Assembly (NCBI GenBank): GCA_029573365.1
Contig: JAKQGD010000627.1
Location: forward strand, 1-38,352
Length of the DNA: 38,352 bases
Direction: 5' to 3'
DNA from: Bacteroidota bacterium
Lineage (GTDB): Bacteria > Bacteroidota > Bacteroidia > Chitinophagales > Saprospiraceae
Shown here: positions 21,802 to 34,987 of the stretch, piece by piece
Layout: each line of letters opens with the position of its first letter
How positions within the stretch are numbered: position 1 is the first letter of the stretch
Translations under genes and position numbers: made by a program
Notes under the pieces: generated by a model
What the model saw: only the letters and a program-made list of their open reading frames with translations
Database searches by the model: none
Told to the model about the DNA's origin: nothing

Positions 21802-23178
21802 ATGAACCACAAAAGATCCTGGGCAGAACCATATAAGATTAAAATGGTCGAACTGCTCAAAATGACCTCCGAAAAAGACAGAAAAAGAGCCATTAAGGAA
21901 GCGGGAAACAATACCTTCCTGTTAAAATCAGAAGATGTATACATAGATTTGCTGACCGACAGTGGCACCAATGCCATGAGTGATCGTCAGTGGAGTGCTT
22001 TTATGATGGGCGACGAAGCGTACGCTGGAAGTAAAAGTTTTTACAATATGGAAAAGGCCATTCAAAAGTATTATGGATACAAATATGTGGTTCCGACACA
22101 TCAGGGAAGGGGGGCAGAAAATATACTTTCAAAAATACTTATCAGGCAGGGAGACGTCGTCCCCGGCAACATGTATTTTACTACGACAAGGCTGCATCAG
22201 GAGTTGGCCGGTGGAACATTTAAGGACATCATCATCGACGAAGCCCATGATCCGCTAAGTGAACACCCCTTTAAGGGAAATGTGGACCTTGATAAGCTGG
22301 ATGCATTGGTTAAAACATACGGTGCGGACAAAATTCCTTATGTCAGTATTGCAACCAATGTCAATATGGCCGGCGGCCAGCCCATCAGCATGGAGAATCT
22401 CAGGAGTCTGAGAGAATATACGCAAAGACACGGCATACGCATCATCCACGATATGACAAGGGTCGCCGAAAACGCCTACTTCATCCAGCAAAGAGAAGAA
22501 GGATACAAACAAAAAACCATAGCGGAAATAGTCAGGGAAATATGCAGTTACACTGACGGTGCTACCATGTCTGCTAAAAAGGATGCACTGGTAAATATAG
22601 GTGGGTTTATGGCTACCAATGAGTGGGACGTTTATGAAGAGGCCCGCAACCTCGTCGTTGTCTACGAAGGGTTGCACACATACGGAGGTCTCGCAGGCCG
22701 GGACATGGAAGCCATAGCAGTAGGCATAGCCGAAAGCCTGGACGATAACCACCAGCACGCCAGGGTAGGGCAGGTGGAATATCTGGGACATAAGATGATG
22801 GAATACAACATACCCATTGTAAAGCCTGTAGGTGGCCATGGCATTTTTGTGGATGCCAAAACATTTTTGCCTCACCTTACACAGGACCAGTTTCCGGCAC
22901 AGAGCCTGGCAGCAGAAGTATACACAGATTCCGGGGTGAGAACCATGGAAAGAGGTATCGTATCTGCGGGCAGGAAGCCCGACGGGACCAATTACTACCC
23001 TAATCTCGAGCTTGTAAGATTTACCATACCCAGGCGGGTTTATACGCAGGCACACATGGATGTGATAGCAGAATCGGTGGCCAATGTGTATGATCGCCGC
23101 AAAAAGATCAGAGGCCTGAAAATGGTTTATGAGCCTAAATATCTAAGGTTTTTCCAGGCCCGATTTGAAAAATTGTAA
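21802..23178 (+). CDS. tpl: Tyrosine phenol-lyase-like PLP enzyme (tryptophanase/TPL family)
   Basis: TDSGTNAMSDRQW, PTHQGRGAENIL, TMSAKKDALVNIGGF; TPL-type GVRTMERGIVSAGR and LRFFQARF rather than tryptophanase GVRAVEIGS / LRHFTAK. Confidence 0.88.
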   Translation: MNHKRSWAEPYKIKMVELLKMTSEKDRKRAIKEAGNNTFLLKSEDVYIDLLTDSGTNAMSDRQWSAFMMGDEAYAGSKSFYNMEKAIQKYYGYKYVVPTHQGRGAENILSKILIRQGDVVPGNMYFTTTRLHQELAGGTFKDIIIDEAHDPLSEHPFKGNVDLDKLDALVKTYGADKIPYVSIATNVNMAGGQPISMENLRSLREYTQRHGIRIIHDMTRVAENAYFIQQREEGYKQKTIAEIVREICSYTDGATMSAKKDALVNIGGFMATNEWDVYEEARNLVVVYEGLHTYGGLAGRDMEAIAVGIAESLDDNHQHARVGQVEYLGHKMMEYNIPIVKPVGGHGIFVDAKTFLPHLTQDQFPAQSLAAEVYTDSGVRTMERGIVSAGRKPDGTNYYPNLELVRFTIPRRVYTQAHMDVIAESVANVYDRRKKIRGLKMVYEPKYLRFFQARFEKL

Positions 23179-25431: not shown

Positions 25432-26025
25432 ATGCACATCGAAGTGGACCTGCTTATAGCCTGGGGAGCTGTGGCCAGAAAATACAGTAAAAGTGAATTT
25501 GTATTTTACGAAAATGATCCCTGCAAGTATTACTATCAGATTCTGGACGGTAGGGTAAAAATGTGTTGTTATAACGAAGACGGCAAAGTTTTTATCCAGG
25601 GTATGTTTGAATCCGGCGAAAGTTTTGGTGAGCCTCCTCTTTTTATTTCGTTACCATATCCGGCGTGTGCGGTGACGGAATCAGTAAGTGTCATTTACCG
25701 TTTGCCAAAAGAGACATTTGTCAGATTGCTTGAAGAATATCCGGCATTGAAAATGCAGTTTCTCACCGGTTTTGCCAGAAGAATTTATGATAAGTCAGCC
25801 AGAAACAAGGACATTGTCAATGCACACCCTGACCAGAAAATCAGGAGTTTCCTAGATAATTATAAGTTAAACCACAGCAGCAAACCGGGCAAGACTTTTA
25901 TTCCAATGACCCGTCAACAAATAGCAGATTCTCTGGGCCTTCGTGTAGAAACTGTGATTCGTACTTTGTTAAAAATGGAAGAAAAAGGAGTGGTTGAAAT
26001 TATAAAACATAAGCTTTATTACTGA
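25432..26025 (+). CDS. Crp/Fnr family transcriptional regulator
   Basis: Cyclic-nucleotide-binding fold (FESGESFGEPPLF), C-terminal HTH MTRQQIADSLGLRVETVIRTLLKMEEKGVVEI. Confidence 0.93.
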   Translation: MHIEVDLLIAWGAVARKYSKSEFVFYENDPCKYYYQILDGRVKMCCYNEDGKVFIQGMFESGESFGEPPLFISLPYPACAVTESVSVIYRLPKETFVRLLEEYPALKMQFLTGFARRIYDKSARNKDIVNAHPDQKIRSFLDNYKLNHSSKPGKTFIPMTRQQIADSLGLRVETVIRTLLKMEEKGVVEIIKHKLYY

Positions 26026-27248
26026 TGAAAAAGGATCTAACCGGACTAATGATCAGTATCGGACTAATCAACCTTTGTCTGGTGGCTCTCATAGGGGTTA
26101 TCATGAGGTACAAAATAGGATTTGAATTTCCGTATTTTAACCAGAAATACCTTCTTCATGCCCATTCACATTTTGCATTTGCCGGGTGGGTTTCCCATAT
26201 GTTGTTTACACTGATGGTACGGTTTCTGCTTGACCGGGGAGTTCAGACGTCAAGGTATTTTAGTCTTCTGGTGGTTAATCTAATTTGTGCTTTTGGCATG
26301 CTGTTTTCCTTTACTGTTCAGGGATACAGTGCTGTTTCAATAACTTTTTCCAGCATTTCAATACTCAATGGTTTTGTATTCGCTCTTTATTTTTTTGCAG
26401 ACCTTACCAGAAATTGTCCGGTGCACCCATCAACATCTTGGTTTAAAGCTGCTCTGGTCTTCAACATATTGTCTGCTGTAGGTACTATGTATCTGGCATA
26501 TATGATGGCATCTGGTAATATAGACCAAAAGCTTTATCTCGCTTCGATTTATTTTTATCTTCATTTTCAGTACAGTGGTTGGTTTTTCTTTGCTATTATG
26601 GGACTATTTATGGCAAGCCTGGCCAGTATCGATACCTTCAGAAAAGACGTTGTAATTTTTTCTGTATTTTTTATCGCATGTATACCGGCATATTTCCTGT
26701 CGATTCTATGGGCCAATCTTCCATGGTATATTTTTTTATTACCGTTGCTGGCAGTCATACTGCAGCTGGTAGGAATAACCCGATTCCTCATGTTGTTATT
26801 CAGACTTAAACCAGAAATTGTTAAGAATTGGGTATTGCCGGCCAGATGGGTGCTGTCACTGTCACTTTTGGCTCTGATTATTAAGCTTGTCCTTCAGACA
26901 GGAAGCATCTTACCTGAAGTAAGCAAACTGGCATTCGGTTTTAGATCTATTGTCATAGCATACCTTCATCTTGTTTTGCTGGGGTTTACCACGATGTTTA
27001 TTCTTGGTTATCTTTTGCTTGAAAGGCATATAAGCATAGGCAGAACCGCATTGTGGGCAGTGGGGGTCTTTTGTGCCGGAGTTGGTGCCAATGAACTGGT
27101 ACTTATGGTTCAGGGCATAGCATCATTTGGTTATGTGGTTATACCTTATTTAAATCAGATACTGTTTTTAATCAGCATGGTCATGATGCTGAGTGTAGTA
27201 GTTCTTGTCATTTCTCACGCCAAAGACAGAACCAAGGCCTCTTTATGA
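26025..27248 (+). CDS. Polytopic membrane protein with His-rich TM motifs (possibly heme-copper-oxidase-subunit-I-like)
   Basis: About 12 hydrophobic segments; HAHSHFAFAGW, HFQYSGW, HLVLLGF; start overlaps the Crp stop (TGATG). Confidence 0.75.
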   Translation: MKKDLTGLMISIGLINLCLVALIGVIMRYKIGFEFPYFNQKYLLHAHSHFAFAGWVSHMLFTLMVRFLLDRGVQTSRYFSLLVVNLICAFGMLFSFTVQGYSAVSITFSSISILNGFVFALYFFADLTRNCPVHPSTSWFKAALVFNILSAVGTMYLAYMMASGNIDQKLYLASIYFYLHFQYSGWFFFAIMGLFMASLASIDTFRKDVVIFSVFFIACIPAYFLSILWANLPWYIFLLPLLAVILQLVGITRFLMLLFRLKPEIVKNWVLPARWVLSLSLLALIIKLVLQTGSILPEVSKLAFGFRSIVIAYLHLVLLGFTTMFILGYLLLERHISIGRTALWAVGVFCAGVGANELVLMVQGIASFGYVVIPYLNQILFLISMVMMLSVVVLVISHAKDRTKASL

Positions 27249-27304
27249 TTACACTCATAAAGACCGGCTTTTAGCCTGATGTACCTTGTGCAAAAAAATA
27301 AAAC

Positions 27305-27874
27305 ATGATACGAATAACTCAGACTTTGATTGTTCTGGTCCTGATTGCAATTTGCTCATGCAAATCTTCGACCTCAGAGCAGGCCGCATCGACTGCATCT
27401 ACAGGTTCCAATGTCAGTGCAGCAACAGATGGTGTTGGCCAATCCAATGTAAAGGACGAAATCTCCAGTCCAAACATTGTCCAGGTGGCCATAGGCAGCA
27501 AGGACCATTCTACTCTCGTGGCAGCCGTTAAAGCCGGTGGGTTGGTAGATGCCCTAAGCAATGCGGGCCCATTTACCGTATTTGCTCCCACCAATGCTGC
27601 CTTTGAAAAATTGCCGGCCGGAACGGTAGAGGGGCTGCTAAAACCGGAAAAAAAGGCCGACCTCGTAAACATCCTCGAGTACCATACGTATGTAGGGGCC
27701 CTCAAACCGGAGTATTTTCAGAATGGCCAGTCATACGAGCAAGTCAACGCTAAAAAAGTGGACATCACAGTAAAAGACGGCAAAACGTATGTCAACGGAT
27801 CAGAGATTGTCGGTTCAGTACAGACTTCCAATGGCTGGATCCATGTAATCAATGACGTGTTATTACCTAAATGA
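27305..27874 (+). CDS. Fasciclin (FAS1) domain lipoprotein
   Basis: LIAICSCKSS lipobox; GPFTVFAPTNAAFEKLPAGTVEGLLKPE...LEYHTY, NGWIHVINDVLLP. Confidence 0.95.
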   Translation: MIRITQTLIVLVLIAICSCKSSTSEQAASTASTGSNVSAATDGVGQSNVKDEISSPNIVQVAIGSKDHSTLVAAVKAGGLVDALSNAGPFTVFAPTNAAFEKLPAGTVEGLLKPEKKADLVNILEYHTYVGALKPEYFQNGQSYEQVNAKKVDITVKDGKTYVNGSEIVGSVQTSNGWIHVINDVLLPK

Positions 27875-28445: not shown

Positions 28446-29213
28446 TCAAAGATCTTTCCTTTTAAAAATTTTCAAAGACAGGTAAAATGGAATCAGGATC
28501 CAAAGCATCATAAGAATTGCCGACACAGCCAGGCCGGTAGTAGTACCAAACATTTTCTGAAAAACAGCCCCTGTAAATCCTAAAAGTACGGTCATATCTA
28601 TCTGAAGCAGGACAAGTATGCGGGCCAGGTCTATGGGATTGAGTGCTGAAACCACGACCATAGGCTTTTCAATGGGATAATCAGCAAATTGGAACATTAA
28701 AAACAGAACGAGGCCATCATATATCAAGGTCATAAACAACCAGATAATGACTGACAGTCCTATGCCCCGGGCCTTGTCACGCATTAGTATAGAACAAAGC
28801 ATAGCCAGCGATGTAAAAACCAGGGTTACCATAATACCTGTAGCTACCAGGATTAGCCCTGTTTTGCCAGGAATAAATATCACTACAGGAATACCTATTC
28901 CGACCAGAAACGAAACAACAAGAGCCGATGACAAGCCGGCAAACAAGGCTGTCCAGATGGATGCCCTTTTTACGGGTTGGCTTACTAGCAATTCAATAAA
29001 TTCGCCACTGTTGTAAATGTATATATTTGAAAAAATGATAGCCACAAGTGGAACGGTCAGCAAAACCAGGTTTAGCAAGGATAGTACAGCCTTGGAAGTA
29101 CTGTCTTCGAGACTGAAAATGCTCCAGGAAAAAACAGCCAATACGAGTGTGTATACCAGGATTACCTTGTTTCTGAGTATATCGGATATTACAAATGAAG
29201 CTATTTTTTTCAC
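28446..29213 (-). CDS. nosY: ABC transporter permease NosY
   Basis: Six-TM ABC-2 type permease directly after nosF with a 4-nt overlap in the nos cluster. Confidence 0.88.
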   Translation of the reverse strand: MKKIASFVISDILRNKVILVYTLVLAVFSWSIFSLEDSTSKAVLSLLNLVLLTVPLVAIIFSNIYIYNSGEFIELLVSQPVKRASIWTALFAGLSSALVVSFLVGIGIPVVIFIPGKTGLILVATGIMVTLVFTSLAMLCSILMRDKARGIGLSVIIWLFMTLIYDGLVLFLMFQFADYPIEKPMVVVSALNPIDLARILVLLQIDMTVLLGFTGAVFQKMFGTTTGLAVSAILMMLWILIPFYLSLKIFKRKDL

Positions 29214-29917
29214 CTTACACCCGCTTTAAGTATTTTATGAATGGCCCGAGACACACGTTCTTCACCCGTCCGTTCGAATAGCTCACTGACTGTAAGATGA
29301 AATTTGATGTGTGCCTCTTCCATAAAGATAACATCTGTAAGCAGGTCATCCAGTTCGCTTAGCAGGTGTGAAGATATCAGTATCAGTTTGTCCTGCCTTA
29401 CCTTTATTATTTTTTCCCTGAGAATTTCTGATGCCATCGGATCAAGGCCGGCCGTGGGTTCATCCAGAACCAGCACCGTGGGATTAAACATAAATGCCAG
29501 TGTGGCACTCACTTTTTGGGTAGTACCTCCTGAAAGCGTTCTCATTTTTTTGTATGATACTGTATCAAGGCCAAAGGAGTGAAAAAGCTCCAGGTCCTCT
29601 TTTCCATCAAAATGTCTGATGCTGCGGATCATATCGATGACCTGAATAATTGACATATTTTCTGGGTATCGTCCTATCTGCGGCATATAGCCTATATGAT
29701 TTTTATAGCTCACATCTCCTGCTACAGATCTTCCGTTTACCAGAATTTGCCCCTTGTCGGGGAAAACCATGCCAAGGAAGTGTTTAATAAGAGTGGTCTT
29801 ACCACAGGCATTGGGACCTATTAAACCTACACATCTGCCCTTTTCGAGCCGCAAGTTTATTTCGGACAGTGCTTTGGTTTGTCCAAAGGACTTGGATATG
29901 TTGGTTAACTCAATCAC
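29210..29917 (-). CDS. nosF: ABC transporter ATPase NosF
   Basis: Walker A GPNACGKTTL, LSGGTTQKVSATLA, Walker B VLVLDEPTAGLDP; nos cluster position. Confidence 0.9.
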   Translation of the reverse strand: MIELTNISKSFGQTKALSEINLRLEKGRCVGLIGPNACGKTTLIKHFLGMVFPDKGQILVNGRSVAGDVSYKNHIGYMPQIGRYPENMSIIQVIDMIRSIRHFDGKEDLELFHSFGLDTVSYKKMRTLSGGTTQKVSATLAFMFNPTVLVLDEPTAGLDPMASEILREKIIKVRQDKLILISSHLLSELDDLLTDVIFMEEAHIKFHLTVSELFERTGEERVSRAIHKILKAGVR

Positions 29918-31161
29918 AGGTCCAGAGGTTTCATTTTTGGGTGGTCGTCTCGGAAAGATTCGGGAGTGATGCTTGGTATCAGTTTTTCTGTACGCTCAAG
30001 CAGAGAGATCATAAAACTTCTGAATAAAAGCATAGCCACAGGATTATTTTCGATAACTACAGCATAAAGACTCAGTGGCCGGTAAGGTACATCACCGCAG
30101 GCATCCTTGTTTAGGTCGTAACCCTCGTATTTGTCCCAGTAATTATTTTTAAATGTATTGAGCACCAGCGACCCATTGGTGCTTACATCAAATGTATTGG
30201 AGATAAAGTTGTTTTCCTGTACCACATTGTCCATACAATTGGCCTGTATCTTGAGTCCCCAACCGTTGTCACGGAAAGTGTTTTTACTGATGACCATGCG
30301 GTTTGCACCCTCGAGGTACAAGGCTGAGGTGTTATCGGTAAAGCTGTTTCCTATGATTTCAGCGTCCGAGATATCCTTTAGCAGGATGCCATAGGAGGCA
30401 TCGCCTCGGCTTTCGGCAAAAGTATTGTTATACATTAGTACGTTCTTTGTATACATAACGGCCACGCCGGCACCATTGGCCACAAATACATTATTGATGT
30501 AGTCATCATCATTGGAAAACATAAAATGAAGGCCGTACCTGAGATTATACTTGGAAATGTTTCTCCACACCAGAGAATGGGTAACAAACTCAAAATAAAT
30601 GCCATCTCTGTGTCCTGTAATCTTGTTTCCGATTATGGTCAAGCTGTCTGATTTCCAGCAATGGATGCCATTCCCTATCTTTTGTTCTTCTGAAGCATTG
30701 GCCATGATTTTATTGTTTCGTACAATGCATCCGGAAGAATACTGCAGATAAATGCCAAAAAAATTATCAACAAGTTCGTTGTCTTCCAGGATTACTTTTT
30801 TTACATTGTACACTCTGATACCTGCAGGATCGTCGAGCGTTCCACTTCCGGACCTTATTATTCTAAATCCTTTTACAATGACATCAGAAGACTTAATGGC
30901 CAGCACCTCTCCTTTCATACCGCCATCTATGATTGGTCTTTCTATGCCGATCATGATGATTTTTTTTCTGATGGTCAGTGTTCCTTCAGCATAGGTGCCT
31001 TCAAATACCATCACTGTATCTTTATCGGAAGCCTGTTTTAAGGCATCAGCTATGCGGATGAAATCCTTTCCAGAGCCTACTGTCAGGGTGCAGCCCCACA
31101 ATGGCAAGGACCAAATCAGTGTTATGGCCAAAAATCCCGGTCTTCTGCAGGTGATGATCAT
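29914..31161 (-). CDS. nosD: NosD periplasmic copper-processing beta-helix protein
   Basis: Parallel beta-helix repeats (NNKIM.., GNKITGHRDGIYFEF, MYNNTFAESRGDASYGILLKD); start likely MIITCRRPG at 31161. Confidence 0.92.
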   Translation of the reverse strand: MIITCRRPGFLAITLIWSLPLWGCTLTVGSGKDFIRIADALKQASDKDTVMVFEGTYAEGTLTIRKKIIMIGIERPIIDGGMKGEVLAIKSSDVIVKGFRIIRSGSGTLDDPAGIRVYNVKKVILEDNELVDNFFGIYLQYSSGCIVRNNKIMANASEEQKIGNGIHCWKSDSLTIIGNKITGHRDGIYFEFVTHSLVWRNISKYNLRYGLHFMFSNDDDYINNVFVANGAGVAVMYTKNVLMYNNTFAESRGDASYGILLKDISDAEIIGNSFTDNTSALYLEGANRMVISKNTFRDNGWGLKIQANCMDNVVQENNFISNTFDVSTNGSLVLNTFKNNYWDKYEGYDLNKDACGDVPYRPLSLYAVVIENNPVAMLLFRSFMISLLERTEKLIPSITPESFRDDHPKMKPLDL

Positions 31162-31168
31162 ATCCGGC

Positions 31169-32182
31169 TCATTTTGAGAGTATAATGCTCCATTCGGTTT
31201 TTTGGGCGTTGGTTTTCTGCAGCATGGACTCTGCCTCACTTGCAGTAGAAAAAGCAGCTACGTTTCCTGACATGGGACTGCTTATGGACCCTCCTTTAAT
31301 ATAAAAGGCTGTTTCAGCGGGTATAAGACTGTTAGTGCCGTTAAAATCATGGACATAGCATTTTTTTACAGGCTTGTCGGTATTCTGTCGGATAAATCCG
31401 GTCATACACGAAATATCGTCAAATTTGTAAATCCGACCTTTCATTGTAATCAATTCACATCCAAAATGTGGGTCCGCGATGCTCATTTTACAAAAACTAC
31501 ATGTATCCTTATTGATAATGATGGGATCCGGACCTGATGGCTGACATGATATAATAGATAAAAATAGCACAGGTATACTAAGAGCTCTGGCTTTCTGTCT
31601 ACTGAAAAGTTTACGGGTCAGCCTGGTTTCTACGGCCCAGGCCCAGGCAATCAGTAAACCACCTGCAAGCATCAACCATCCTCCGATATCAGGAATGGAG
31701 TATGCTCCAAAATTTAGCAACTGTTTAAACCCAATCAATGGAGGTTGATAGGCCATCCCCGGTATCTGTATGGCAGCTGTAGGGTCAAGATCGTGGCCAT
31801 AATCGTATTCCCATTTCCAGAAATCATACATTGCCAGAATACCAAATAACAAAAAGGCTATAAGAAGGACTGTAAGTATTTTCCTGCTTTTTAAAAAGGC
31901 GGCCAGGATACTCCATATGCCAAAAAACCCAATGATGAAAGGCAACACTTTAAACTCAACAAACTCCTCAGAATGTAATGTCTTCATGCCAATGTAGTGG
32001 TTGAGGCCGTTTATAATGTCGACATCACCTCCGAGTTTGCTTGCATAAATGTATAACCCGAGGCCTTCAGGATACTGAGGAGCGTCCAGCTCGATTCTCC
32101 ATATCGGTAAAAATATGGCGGAAATGATAAAAAGTCCGGCAGTAATCAGCATGACCACTGATATTTTTGAAAAAGGTTTCAT
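31169..32182 (-). CDS. nosL: Four-TM membrane domain fused to NosL copper chaperone
   Basis: N-terminal TM domain with PIWRIELDAPQYPEGL, then LSIISCQPSG...DTCSFCKMSIADPHFGCELIT (NosL C-x2-C-x-M). Confidence 0.88.
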   Translation of the reverse strand: MKPFSKISVVMLITAGLFIISAIFLPIWRIELDAPQYPEGLGLYIYASKLGGDVDIINGLNHYIGMKTLHSEEFVEFKVLPFIIGFFGIWSILAAFLKSRKILTVLLIAFLLFGILAMYDFWKWEYDYGHDLDPTAAIQIPGMAYQPPLIGFKQLLNFGAYSIPDIGGWLMLAGGLLIAWAWAVETRLTRKLFSRQKARALSIPVLFLSIISCQPSGPDPIIINKDTCSFCKMSIADPHFGCELITMKGRIYKFDDISCMTGFIRQNTDKPVKKCYVHDFNGTNSLIPAETAFYIKGGSISSPMSGNVAAFSTASEAESMLQKTNAQKTEWSIILSK

Positions 32183-32294: not shown

Positions 32295-34283
32295 TTATTG
32301 TACCTGATTTGTTCCAGGTGCCGATGCTCCGGTACCAAAGGTAAGAGGTACTTTGCTTCCTGCAGGGGACACCCTTACATAACCCTGCATTTCCTGATGC
32401 AAGGCACTACAGAAGTCTGTGCAATACATTGGAAATACTCCTACCCTGTCAGGCTTCCACTTTAATGTAGAGGTTTCTCCAGGCATAATGAGCAACTCCG
32501 CGTTGTCTGTACCTTTAATAGAAAAGCCATGTGGCACATCCCAGTCCTGTTCCAGGTTTGTAATGTGGAAATACACTTCATCTCCCATCCTGATTCCTTC
32601 TATGTTATCAGGACTGAAGTGTGACCTGACAGCGGTCATGTACACATGAACTTTGTTACCATCCCGCACTACTTTGGATTCTTTTTCACCTTTAGCAGCA
32701 TATGGATGGGCATTCTCTTCTATTTTGTAAATTTTATACTGCCCATTGTTTCTGATGAGGTCTGCAGGGGCCGCCTGTGCATAGTGTGGTTCGCCTATGG
32801 TGGGGAAATCCAGAATCATTTGCATTTTTTCGCCGGTAATGTCAAAAAGCTGGGCACTCTGAGTAAGTTCCGGACCAGTGGGCAGATATCTGTCCTTTGT
32901 GATTTTATTGTAAGCAATCATGTATTTTGGATACGGTTTTCTGGTGTTTCCTCCAGGTACACAAAGGTGGCCTACAGAATAGAAAGTAGGAACCCTATCC
33001 ACCACTGCCAGATCCTTGACATTCCACTTGACTACTTCTGAAGAGACAAAGAATGAAGTGTATGCAAATCCATTGCCATCAAACTCAGTGTGCAGAGGTC
33101 CCAGGCCAGGCTTCTTAACTTCTCCATATAGGGCTTCTTCATATTTGATTACCGGGATGCCGCCATAATCGCCATCATAGGCCTTATTTGTTATTGCAGT
33201 TTGTATCTTGTCAAAACTGAACACCGGAAGAACTGCAGCAAGTTTGCCGCTGCCTACGATATATTCGCCGGTAGGGTCCACATCACATCCATGAGGAGAC
33301 TTGGGACATGGTATCATATAGCAAATGTCTTTTAGCTCTGCAGCATCGAGGACAATCACTTCATTCTTGATGGTAGAAGTGGCAGTGTGTGTTTTTTCGT
33401 CATATACATTGTGGGCATAACGTACTTTTTGTTTGACACCCTTTCCTGCCTTCAGGTATTCCTCGGCCTTCTTCCAGTTTACGGCCATGATAAAGTCCTT
33501 GTCCTTTTGTGATGCATTTACTTCCAGCAGGGTATTAGCCTGTTCGGTATTGTAGCAGGAAAAGAAAAACCATCCATGGGACTTGGCCCTTCCGCACCTC
33601 GCAAGGTCAAAGTTTATACCCGGAGTTTTAATCTGGAAAGCAATGTCCATGGCTCCGGAACTCTTGTCAACGCTTACAAAACTAATGTGTCCCTTGAAGT
33701 TGTCCTTATAAGAAGAAATGGGCACGTCACCATTTGAATAATCAGGGGGTATACTAAAACGTGTTCCAGCCACGACGTATTCGGTGTTTTCGGTACCGAA
33801 AGGTGAGCTGTGGTTACCACCACTGTTGGGTAGTTCTATGATTTCGGATGTTCGGAATGTTTTGAGGTCAATCCTGGCAATACGCGGAGTATTGTTGGCA
33901 TTGCCAAAGATCCACTTGCCGTCAATTTCTCCATTTGTTTGTGAAAGCTCGGGGTGATGTAGGTCGTCCCAAGGTACAAATCCGTGTGAAGTATTAAGCA
34001 TGGGCTTGGTTTCTTCACTGTAACCCCACCCTTTTTCAGGGTCCACAGAAAATACCGGAATAACCCTGAATAGTCTACCACTTGGCAGGCCGTAAACTGA
34101 CATCTGGCCACTGAAACCGCCGCTTACAAAATTATAAAAGTCGTCGTACTGACCGGGAGCAACAAAAGATTTAACATCCGAACTACCTTTAACGGAAGTG
34201 CCGGCATTTTTGGGCTTACAGGCAGAATGTGTCAGGACCAATGTCCCGAAAACTGCCAGAATAATCAACAGCTTGGTTTTCAT
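32295..34283 (-). CDS. nosZ: Nitrous-oxide reductase, clade II (Sec-dependent, lipoprotein)
   Basis: Lipobox HSACKPK, no Tat RR; WDDLHHPELS, CPKSPHGCDVDP, GLGPLHTEFDG, CuA motif CTDFCSALHQEMQGYV. Confidence 0.97.
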   Translation of the reverse strand: MKTKLLIILAVFGTLVLTHSACKPKNAGTSVKGSSDVKSFVAPGQYDDFYNFVSGGFSGQMSVYGLPSGRLFRVIPVFSVDPEKGWGYSEETKPMLNTSHGFVPWDDLHHPELSQTNGEIDGKWIFGNANNTPRIARIDLKTFRTSEIIELPNSGGNHSSPFGTENTEYVVAGTRFSIPPDYSNGDVPISSYKDNFKGHISFVSVDKSSGAMDIAFQIKTPGINFDLARCGRAKSHGWFFFSCYNTEQANTLLEVNASQKDKDFIMAVNWKKAEEYLKAGKGVKQKVRYAHNVYDEKTHTATSTIKNEVIVLDAAELKDICYMIPCPKSPHGCDVDPTGEYIVGSGKLAAVLPVFSFDKIQTAITNKAYDGDYGGIPVIKYEEALYGEVKKPGLGPLHTEFDGNGFAYTSFFVSSEVVKWNVKDLAVVDRVPTFYSVGHLCVPGGNTRKPYPKYMIAYNKITKDRYLPTGPELTQSAQLFDITGEKMQMILDFPTIGEPHYAQAAPADLIRNNGQYKIYKIEENAHPYAAKGEKESKVVRDGNKVHVYMTAVRSHFSPDNIEGIRMGDEVYFHITNLEQDWDVPHGFSIKGTDNAELLIMPGETSTLKWKPDRVGVFPMYCTDFCSALHQEMQGYVRVSPAGSKVPLTFGTGASAPGTNQVQ

Positions 34284-34328: not shown

Positions 34329-34817
34329 TTATTTTACTCCGTCGTTCTTCCTCATAAATTCGAGGATGTTTCGTGCGTCTGTATCCGAAAGGCTTTGATT
34401 TGGCATTCTGACCAGACAGATTTCCAGTTGTGCCTGAAGTTCGGGGTCCTTATCAATCATTGGATCAGGATTTGTGATAAAATTCATAATCCAGTGTGCC
34501 GGTTGTCGCTGTGTCACCCCTTTCCATCCTGGTCCTACAAGACGTTCGTCAGATAATTTGTGACAGGAGGCACATTTGACACCCTGGATTTTATCACCCT
34601 CTGATGCCATTCCGGCATTTAGAGTGGCATCCAGGATTACGTTTTCGGCTGAAAACTTGCCCTCACCTCTCTTTGGGTCGTAAGTTTGGGATTCGGCAGG
34701 CTTGGAAGATTCTGAGTTAGGTGATGTGGTGGCTTCAGGTTTTTTCTTTTCCCCTCCGCAGGCCATCATAAACAAAAGCAGTATGGCCCCGATTAAAATT
34801 TTGGTATTGCTCATCAT
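34329..34817 (-). CDS. Monoheme cytochrome c lipoprotein of the nos operon
   Basis: MMSNTKILIGAILLLFMMACGG lipobox; VKCASCHKL heme site, distal Met; start at 34817 or 34814. Confidence 0.92.
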   Translation of the reverse strand: MMSNTKILIGAILLLFMMACGGEKKKPEATTSPNSESSKPAESQTYDPKRGEGKFSAENVILDATLNAGMASEGDKIQGVKCASCHKLSDERLVGPGWKGVTQRQPAHWIMNFITNPDPMIDKDPELQAQLEICLVRMPNQSLSDTDARNILEFMRKNDGVK

Positions 34818-34834
34818 TTTTAATTTATTTTTGG

Positions 34835-34842
34835 CAAAGGTA
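34835..34842 (-). promoter_or_regulatory. Bacteroidota -7 promoter element of the nos operon (TACCTTTG)
   Basis: Minus strand TACCTTTG; no obvious -33 TTTG upstream. Confidence 0.6.
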
Positions 34843-34863
34843 GGATGGGCATTACCGGATAAA

Positions 34864-34881
34864 TTATGACTACAGTCATAA
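34864..34881. promoter_or_regulatory. Perfect 18-bp palindrome TTATGAC-TACA-GTCATAA, probable Crp/Fnr-family operator
   Basis: 7-bp arms fully complementary; centre about 41 bp upstream of the predicted start site. Confidence 0.7.
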
Positions 34882-34987
34882 AGCAACTTACAACATTCAA
34901 AAGCAAAACCCACACACCAGGCAAATAGCCTAAAGAATGCTGTAAAACATATTTACACGCTGCTTAATGAAGAAAGGTATGGAGGTG

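Follow-up and report, generated by a model that had tools for sequence, protein, structure and literature searches.

Class II activation of nos genes by Crp/Fnr-type proteins is a known kind of control. In Pseudomonas, DNR is an NO-responsive activator of nir, nor and nos genes with the box CTTGATnnnnATCAAG (PMC1274295). It resembles the system described here in belonging to the Crp/Fnr family, in its nos, nor and nir type targets and in the TGA-N6-TCA core of its palindrome, but has the half-site TTGAT in place of TTATGAY, while the promoter considered here is of the Bacteroidota TAnnTTTG type. NnrR of alphaproteobacteria (operator ctTTGcgnnnncgCAAag; PMC1274295) is likewise a Crp/Fnr regulator of denitrification genes with a different half-site. 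HcpR and HcpR2, with the operators TTGACnnnnGTCAA and GTAACnnnnGTTAC respectively (PMC1274295), are Crp/Fnr proteins of nitrosative stress that are present in Bacteroidota and share the core TGAC-N4-GTCA with the site studied here, which, however, has A instead of T before TGA; their core targets also appear to differ, being hcp for HcpR as against nos and fasciclin genes for the candidate regulator described below. Clade II nos genes are under Crp/Fnr control in Wolinella succinogenes, through NssA, NssB and NssC (TTGA-N6-TCAA; PMC11539149), in another phylum and with another half-site. Finally, fold and site geometry are shared with CRP and FNR of E. coli acting at class II promoters.

In the literature searched we found no described Bacteroidota nos regulator, and no description of the motif TTATGAY-N4-RTCATAA, of its half-site or of the type of regulator reported here. 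Bacteroidota that carry clade II nosZ are found widely and could act as consumers of the greenhouse gas N2O. We analysed a 38,352-nt stretch of Saprospiraceae DNA (the window) that carries such a nosZ together with a candidate operator and a Crp/Fnr-type gene.

The nos operon and its promoter

The operon reads cytochrome c, nosZ, nosL, nosD, nosF, nosY, and its features and those of its promoter are as follows.

34864–34881, no strand: putative nos operator TTATGACTACAGTCATAA, inverted repeat TTATGACT-AC-AGTCATAA
34835–34842, minus: -7 promoter element TACCTTTG, a perfect TAnnTTTG, 21 nt from the operator
34830–34831, minus: predicted transcription start, from the position of the -7 box
34329–34817, minus: nos lead gene, cytochrome c lipoprotein (Cytochrom_C)
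32295–34283, minus: nosZ, Sec-dependent, clade II (TIGR04246, 916 bits against a cut-off of 625)
31169–32182, minus: nosL-containing gene (PF05573)
29914–31239, minus: nosD (TIGR04247)
29210–29917, minus: nosF-type ABC ATPase (PF00005; synteny)
28446–29213, minus: nosY-type permease (PF12679; synteny)

Homologues of the lead gene begin with a lipoprotein signal, which places its start at the ATG at 34817 or 34814 and not at the GTG at 34913. Read on the minus strand, the promoter region runs from TTATGACTGTAGTCATAA through 21 nt to TACCTTTG and then to the start of this gene. The original prediction described the palindrome as an 18-bp perfect inverted repeat; its position and its centre at 34872.5 hold, whereas the repeat is not perfect, consisting of two perfect 8-bp arms around a non-complementary 2-bp A/C centre (16 of 18 bases paired). 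The promoter-like element proposed at 34842–34835 on the minus strand proved to be a perfect TAnnTTTG, and we agree that a -33 element is missing from view: no TTTG or TTG was seen at that place in the nos promoter, which is occupied by the operator.

In F. psychrophilum the -7 box was mapped at -12 to -5 (PMC9723704), a register that predicts a start at about 34830 and an operator centre at -42.5; the register used originally gives -41.5. Either value follows from a -7 box lying 20–21 nt downstream of the site and corresponds to the class II position. With its operator centred near -41.5, in the place of the upstream element, the nos promoter is predicted to be a class II activator-dependent one.

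A second site beside a fasciclin gene

Convergent with the nos operon, the window holds a regulator–membrane protein–fasciclin gene cluster with a second copy of the site.

25432–26025, plus: Crp/Fnr-type regulator (PF00027, PF13545, PF00325), helix GLRVETVIRTL, proposed ligand of both operators
26025–27248, plus: polytopic membrane protein between the regulator and fasciclin genes; no Pfam, NCBIfam or PDB match
27243–27260, no strand: putative second operator TTATGATTACACTCATAA, located before the fasciclin gene, with an overlap into the end of the 26025 gene
27282–27289, plus: -7 element TACCTTGT of the TAnnTTGY type, 21 nt from the second operator
27305–27874, plus: fasciclin-domain lipoprotein gene (PF02469)

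The spacing between second operator and -7 box is identical to that at nos. A membrane protein of about 407 aa like that at 26025 is conserved between regulator and fasciclin in most relatives; the label 'nnrS' was rejected for it, as neither Pfam, NCBIfam nor PDB supports it. Fasciclin promoters (window 27282–27289; L113–L192) carry TAnnTTGY at spacing 21 in 38 of 58 cases, which is the F. psychrophilum SM5 motif, and nos promoters carry TAnnTTTG in 41 of 43. This usage possibly reflects two sigma factors working with one activator.

Conservation of the site in relatives

We surveyed 199 genomes of the window's family, found nosZ above the cut-off in 72, and fetched and mapped 60 nos loci. 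Some of these share the layout of the window, with the cytochrome c gene and nosZ, L, D, F and Y facing convergent fasciclin, membrane protein and regulator genes, and most of the loci so arranged have one palindrome in front of the cytochrome c gene and another in front of the fasciclin gene. A further 80 named loci, spanning Flavobacterium, Chitinophagaceae, Saprospiraceae, Pedobacter, Kapaibacterium and others, were fetched with the regulator protein rather than the motif.

A site was counted where TTATGA-N6-TCATAA occurred with at most 2 mismatches in 12. Pooling the 80 regulator-fetched loci, seven family loci and the window, which are not phylogenetically independent, we found such a site before 43 of 45 nos lead genes, 59 of 61 fasciclin genes and 48 of 86 regulator genes (the remaining 38 regulator promoters have none at this threshold), against 4 of 51 globin genes, 1 of 75 membrane protein genes and none of the 52 nosY genes. 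The -7 box lies 20–21 nt downstream of the site in 41 of 43 nos and 37 of 48 regulator promoters, and almost never at another distance. Relatives in Saprospiraceae, Flavobacterium, Chitinophagaceae and other groups do carry the palindrome upstream of nosZ, as the original prediction required, and they carry it at the class II distance; the constancy of this spacing also supports the proposed class II position. The palindrome is very probably the docking site of a shared, uncharacterised Crp/Fnr protein.

The candidate regulator

The protein encoded at 25432 belongs to the Crp/Fnr superfamily (PF00027 at 67 bits; PF13545 and PF00325 above cut-off), and its AlphaFold model (pLDDT 91) has CRP as its best PDB matches, at a TM-score of about 0.8. 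It is nevertheless unlike E. coli CRP and FNR in ligand-binding residues as well as half-sites. The cAMP phosphate-binding pair of CRP is absent, with R82 aligning to Tyr76 and S83 to Pro77, residues that are 96% and 95% conserved among 101 homologues, and the NCBIfam CRP equivalog scores 47 bits against a cut-off of 266. The N-terminal Cys cluster of FNR is also absent, there being no Cys before residue 31, and the NCBIfam FNR model scores 36 bits against a cut-off of 228; among the 101 homologues no Cys column and no His column reaches 85% conservation, which bears on the haem-dependent NO sensing of DNR and HcpR as well. The protein scores below the cut-off of every NCBIfam equivalog, so that NCBIfam places it in no characterised family. 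Similarly, the sites depart from the CRP operator TGTGA-N6-TCACA in having A, not G, before TGA, from the FNR/DNR operator TTGAT-N4-ATCAA in having A at position 3, and fit neither HcpR operator.

Four proteins of the window's genome have a cNMP-binding-like domain, namely the 25432 protein, a receiver–Crp fusion and two more, the last two with different recognition helices. Profile hits to the 25432 protein across the family split, with a gap between them, into 20 genomes with proteins of about 200 aa (E <= 3e-44) and a remainder at E above 5e-34 that is mostly of the fusion type (about 350 aa). The nos site, at up to one mismatch, is present in 8 of 11 loci with a 25432 orthologue and in 0 of 49 without (Fisher p = 6e-8, uncorrected for phylogeny). 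Two genomes (G174, G176) combine a perfect nos site with a regulator gene that lies far from nos. The sole same-genus nos locus (G047) has a weak site with 2 mismatches and an unlinked orthologue 39% identical to the 25432 protein, and two remote orthologues (G058, G151) go with no site at nos. No clear site precedes the 25432 gene itself in the window's genome; where relatives have an orthologue and lack nos, the palindrome is found at the promoter of the regulator gene itself, which often has a small gene and a globin gene in divergent orientation. The suggestion that the 25432 protein is the regulator thus gains support from synteny, from own-gene sites in relatives and from co-occurrence, unlinked cases included.

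We consider it likely that a class II Crp/Fnr activator, with 25432 the best candidate, uses the palindrome as its operator and would switch on nos. The main competing view, rather unlikely in our judgement, is that the operator is of this class while its main ligand is a different paralogue, for example the receiver–Crp fusion, whose helix AKETTIRTL resembles that of 25432 and also reads E-T-T-I-R; the ATATGACAATTGTCATAT sites at ccoNO in Flavobacterium likewise hint that DNA of this type may be read by two or more regulators. However, the fusion is common across the family, also in many nos genomes that lack a TTATGA site, and only the 25432 orthologue tracks this site; own-gene sites and synteny also favour 25432. 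In the window's genome a fusion of this kind (L111, G000:C193) adjoins a histidine kinase.

Predicted recognition of the operator

The half-site TTATGAC/GTCATAA was originally held to differ from those of FNR and CRP, and it does; its strict form, on the other hand, gives way to the consensus TTATGAY-N4-RTCATAA. Positions 2–6 of distinct nos sites are T, A, T, G and A at 96–100%, with A at position 3 in 100% of the 33 distinct nos sites, and the fasciclin and regulator sites agree; this base-by-base comparison drew on a set chosen for the site, so that its p values serve for description, the unselected comparison being the one between loci with and without an orthologue.

FNR has the recognition helix VETISR, and its Glu, Arg and Ser212 are among the contacts. 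The corresponding helix here, GLRVETVIR, is near-invariant among the 101 homologues and keeps the Glu and Arg while placing Ile176 where FNR has Ser212. This Ile may explain the A before TGA, and the pair would add an uncharted entry to the Crp/Fnr recognition code.

Nos promoters without an orthologue also carry repeats: 28 of 47 have TGA-N6-TCA at 20–21 nt from a -7 box, where 0.41 would be expected, and their outer bases vary. From this, control of nos by Crp/Fnr proteins at the class II position looks like a general feature of the window's family, and the TTA extension looks specific to the 25432 clade. Most nos loci without a 25432 orthologue (L050–L108) have an Rrf2-type regulator gene divergent from nosZ.

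Proposed mode of action

A dimer of the 25432 protein would sit at about -42, substituting for the -33 element, and recruit RNA polymerase to the TAnnTTTG -7 box, thereby switching on the operon from the cytochrome c gene through nosY. The twin site 21 nt before the fasciclin -7 box would be a target of the same regulator, as would, in many relatives, its own gene and genes that deal with NO; the signal is probably NO or some condition related to it. What the sequences show directly is the presence of the sites, the constant distance that separates them from the -7 box, their conservation and their co-occurrence with the regulator; we infer that the protein binds, that it activates and does not repress, where transcription starts and what the signal is.

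Slightly less probable than binding by another paralogue is that the 25432 protein binds the site but represses, or acts both ways depending on the signal. Negative Crp/Fnr control of a clade II nosZ was inferred from expression correlations in Nitrosophilus labii (PMC11539149). Against this, the fixed 20–21 nt spacing, the centre at -41.5 or -42.5 and the replacement of the -33 region by the operator are the arrangement of a class II activator, and a repressor could work from sites with a looser spacing.

The palindrome by itself was rejected as evidence, as repeats of its class (8-bp arms, 2-bp centre) are expected 0.67 times per window and one was found; for repeats with 7-bp arms and a 4-bp centre, 2.98 were expected and 2 found. 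Its significance comes from context. The window contains two copies of TTATGA-N6-TCATAA followed by TAnnTT at 19–22 nt, 100 shuffles yielded no copy, and the combined pattern at 21 nt without mismatch occurs in the whole genome at nos only. Without the -7 box, the 14-base palindrome with 2 mismatches shows no clear enrichment genome-wide (25 against 18 for the reversed control); a site with 2 mismatches on contig C193 lies between convergent genes and is probably due to chance. That the nos palindrome arose by chance, or serves as terminator or processing signal for the preceding gene, whose stop lies about 107 bp before it, is highly improbable. Barring alignment errors, such readings are refuted by its conservation before nos, fasciclin and regulator genes, whose upstream neighbours vary, and by the fixed -7 box distance. 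It would also make a poor terminator, the 8-bp stem having a loop of 2 nt and no run of T.

A possible wider regulon

We scanned 31 genomes reached through regulator loci and report the best or recurrent matches rather than a complete list. An operator with a -7 box precedes genes for a flavohaemoglobin (L290), for ScdA/RIC (L274), divergent from a NorC-like cytochrome c (L275), and for a NirK-like multicopper oxidase–cytochrome c (L284), targets which suggest an NO/denitrification regulon. The same combination precedes beta-eliminating lyase genes in a relative (L286, G209) and in the window's own genome (C454:7488–7533; L002, L236), the latter with 1 mismatch of 18 and a perfect -7 box before a tryptophanase-like lyase. 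A paralogue of this lyase is encoded at 21802 in the window.

More tentatively, and with slightly less than even expectation, an undescribed Bacteroidota Crp/Fnr clade defined by GLRVETVIR and TTATGAY-N4-RTCATAA may be the main NO/denitrification activator in Flavobacteriia, Chitinophagia and Saprospiria, serving TAnnTTTG promoters at nos and TAnnTTGY promoters at fasciclin genes from the same class II position. A named regulator, an operator and a fixed geometry make nos control testable in culturable Flavobacterium and allow regulon prediction from genomes.

Operators with a -7 box were also found far upstream of ccoNO (L272, L281, L282); these Flavobacterium sites are repeats that resemble ATATGACAATTGTCATAT, show class II spacing and lie some 240 nt ahead of the genes, and they are possibly read by a different Crp/Fnr paralogue. 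Finally, next to a 25432 orthologue in another genome (L203, G176:C10), a perfect operator precedes a CuA-domain and COX1-like gene pair, perhaps encoding an NO reductase or an oxidase.
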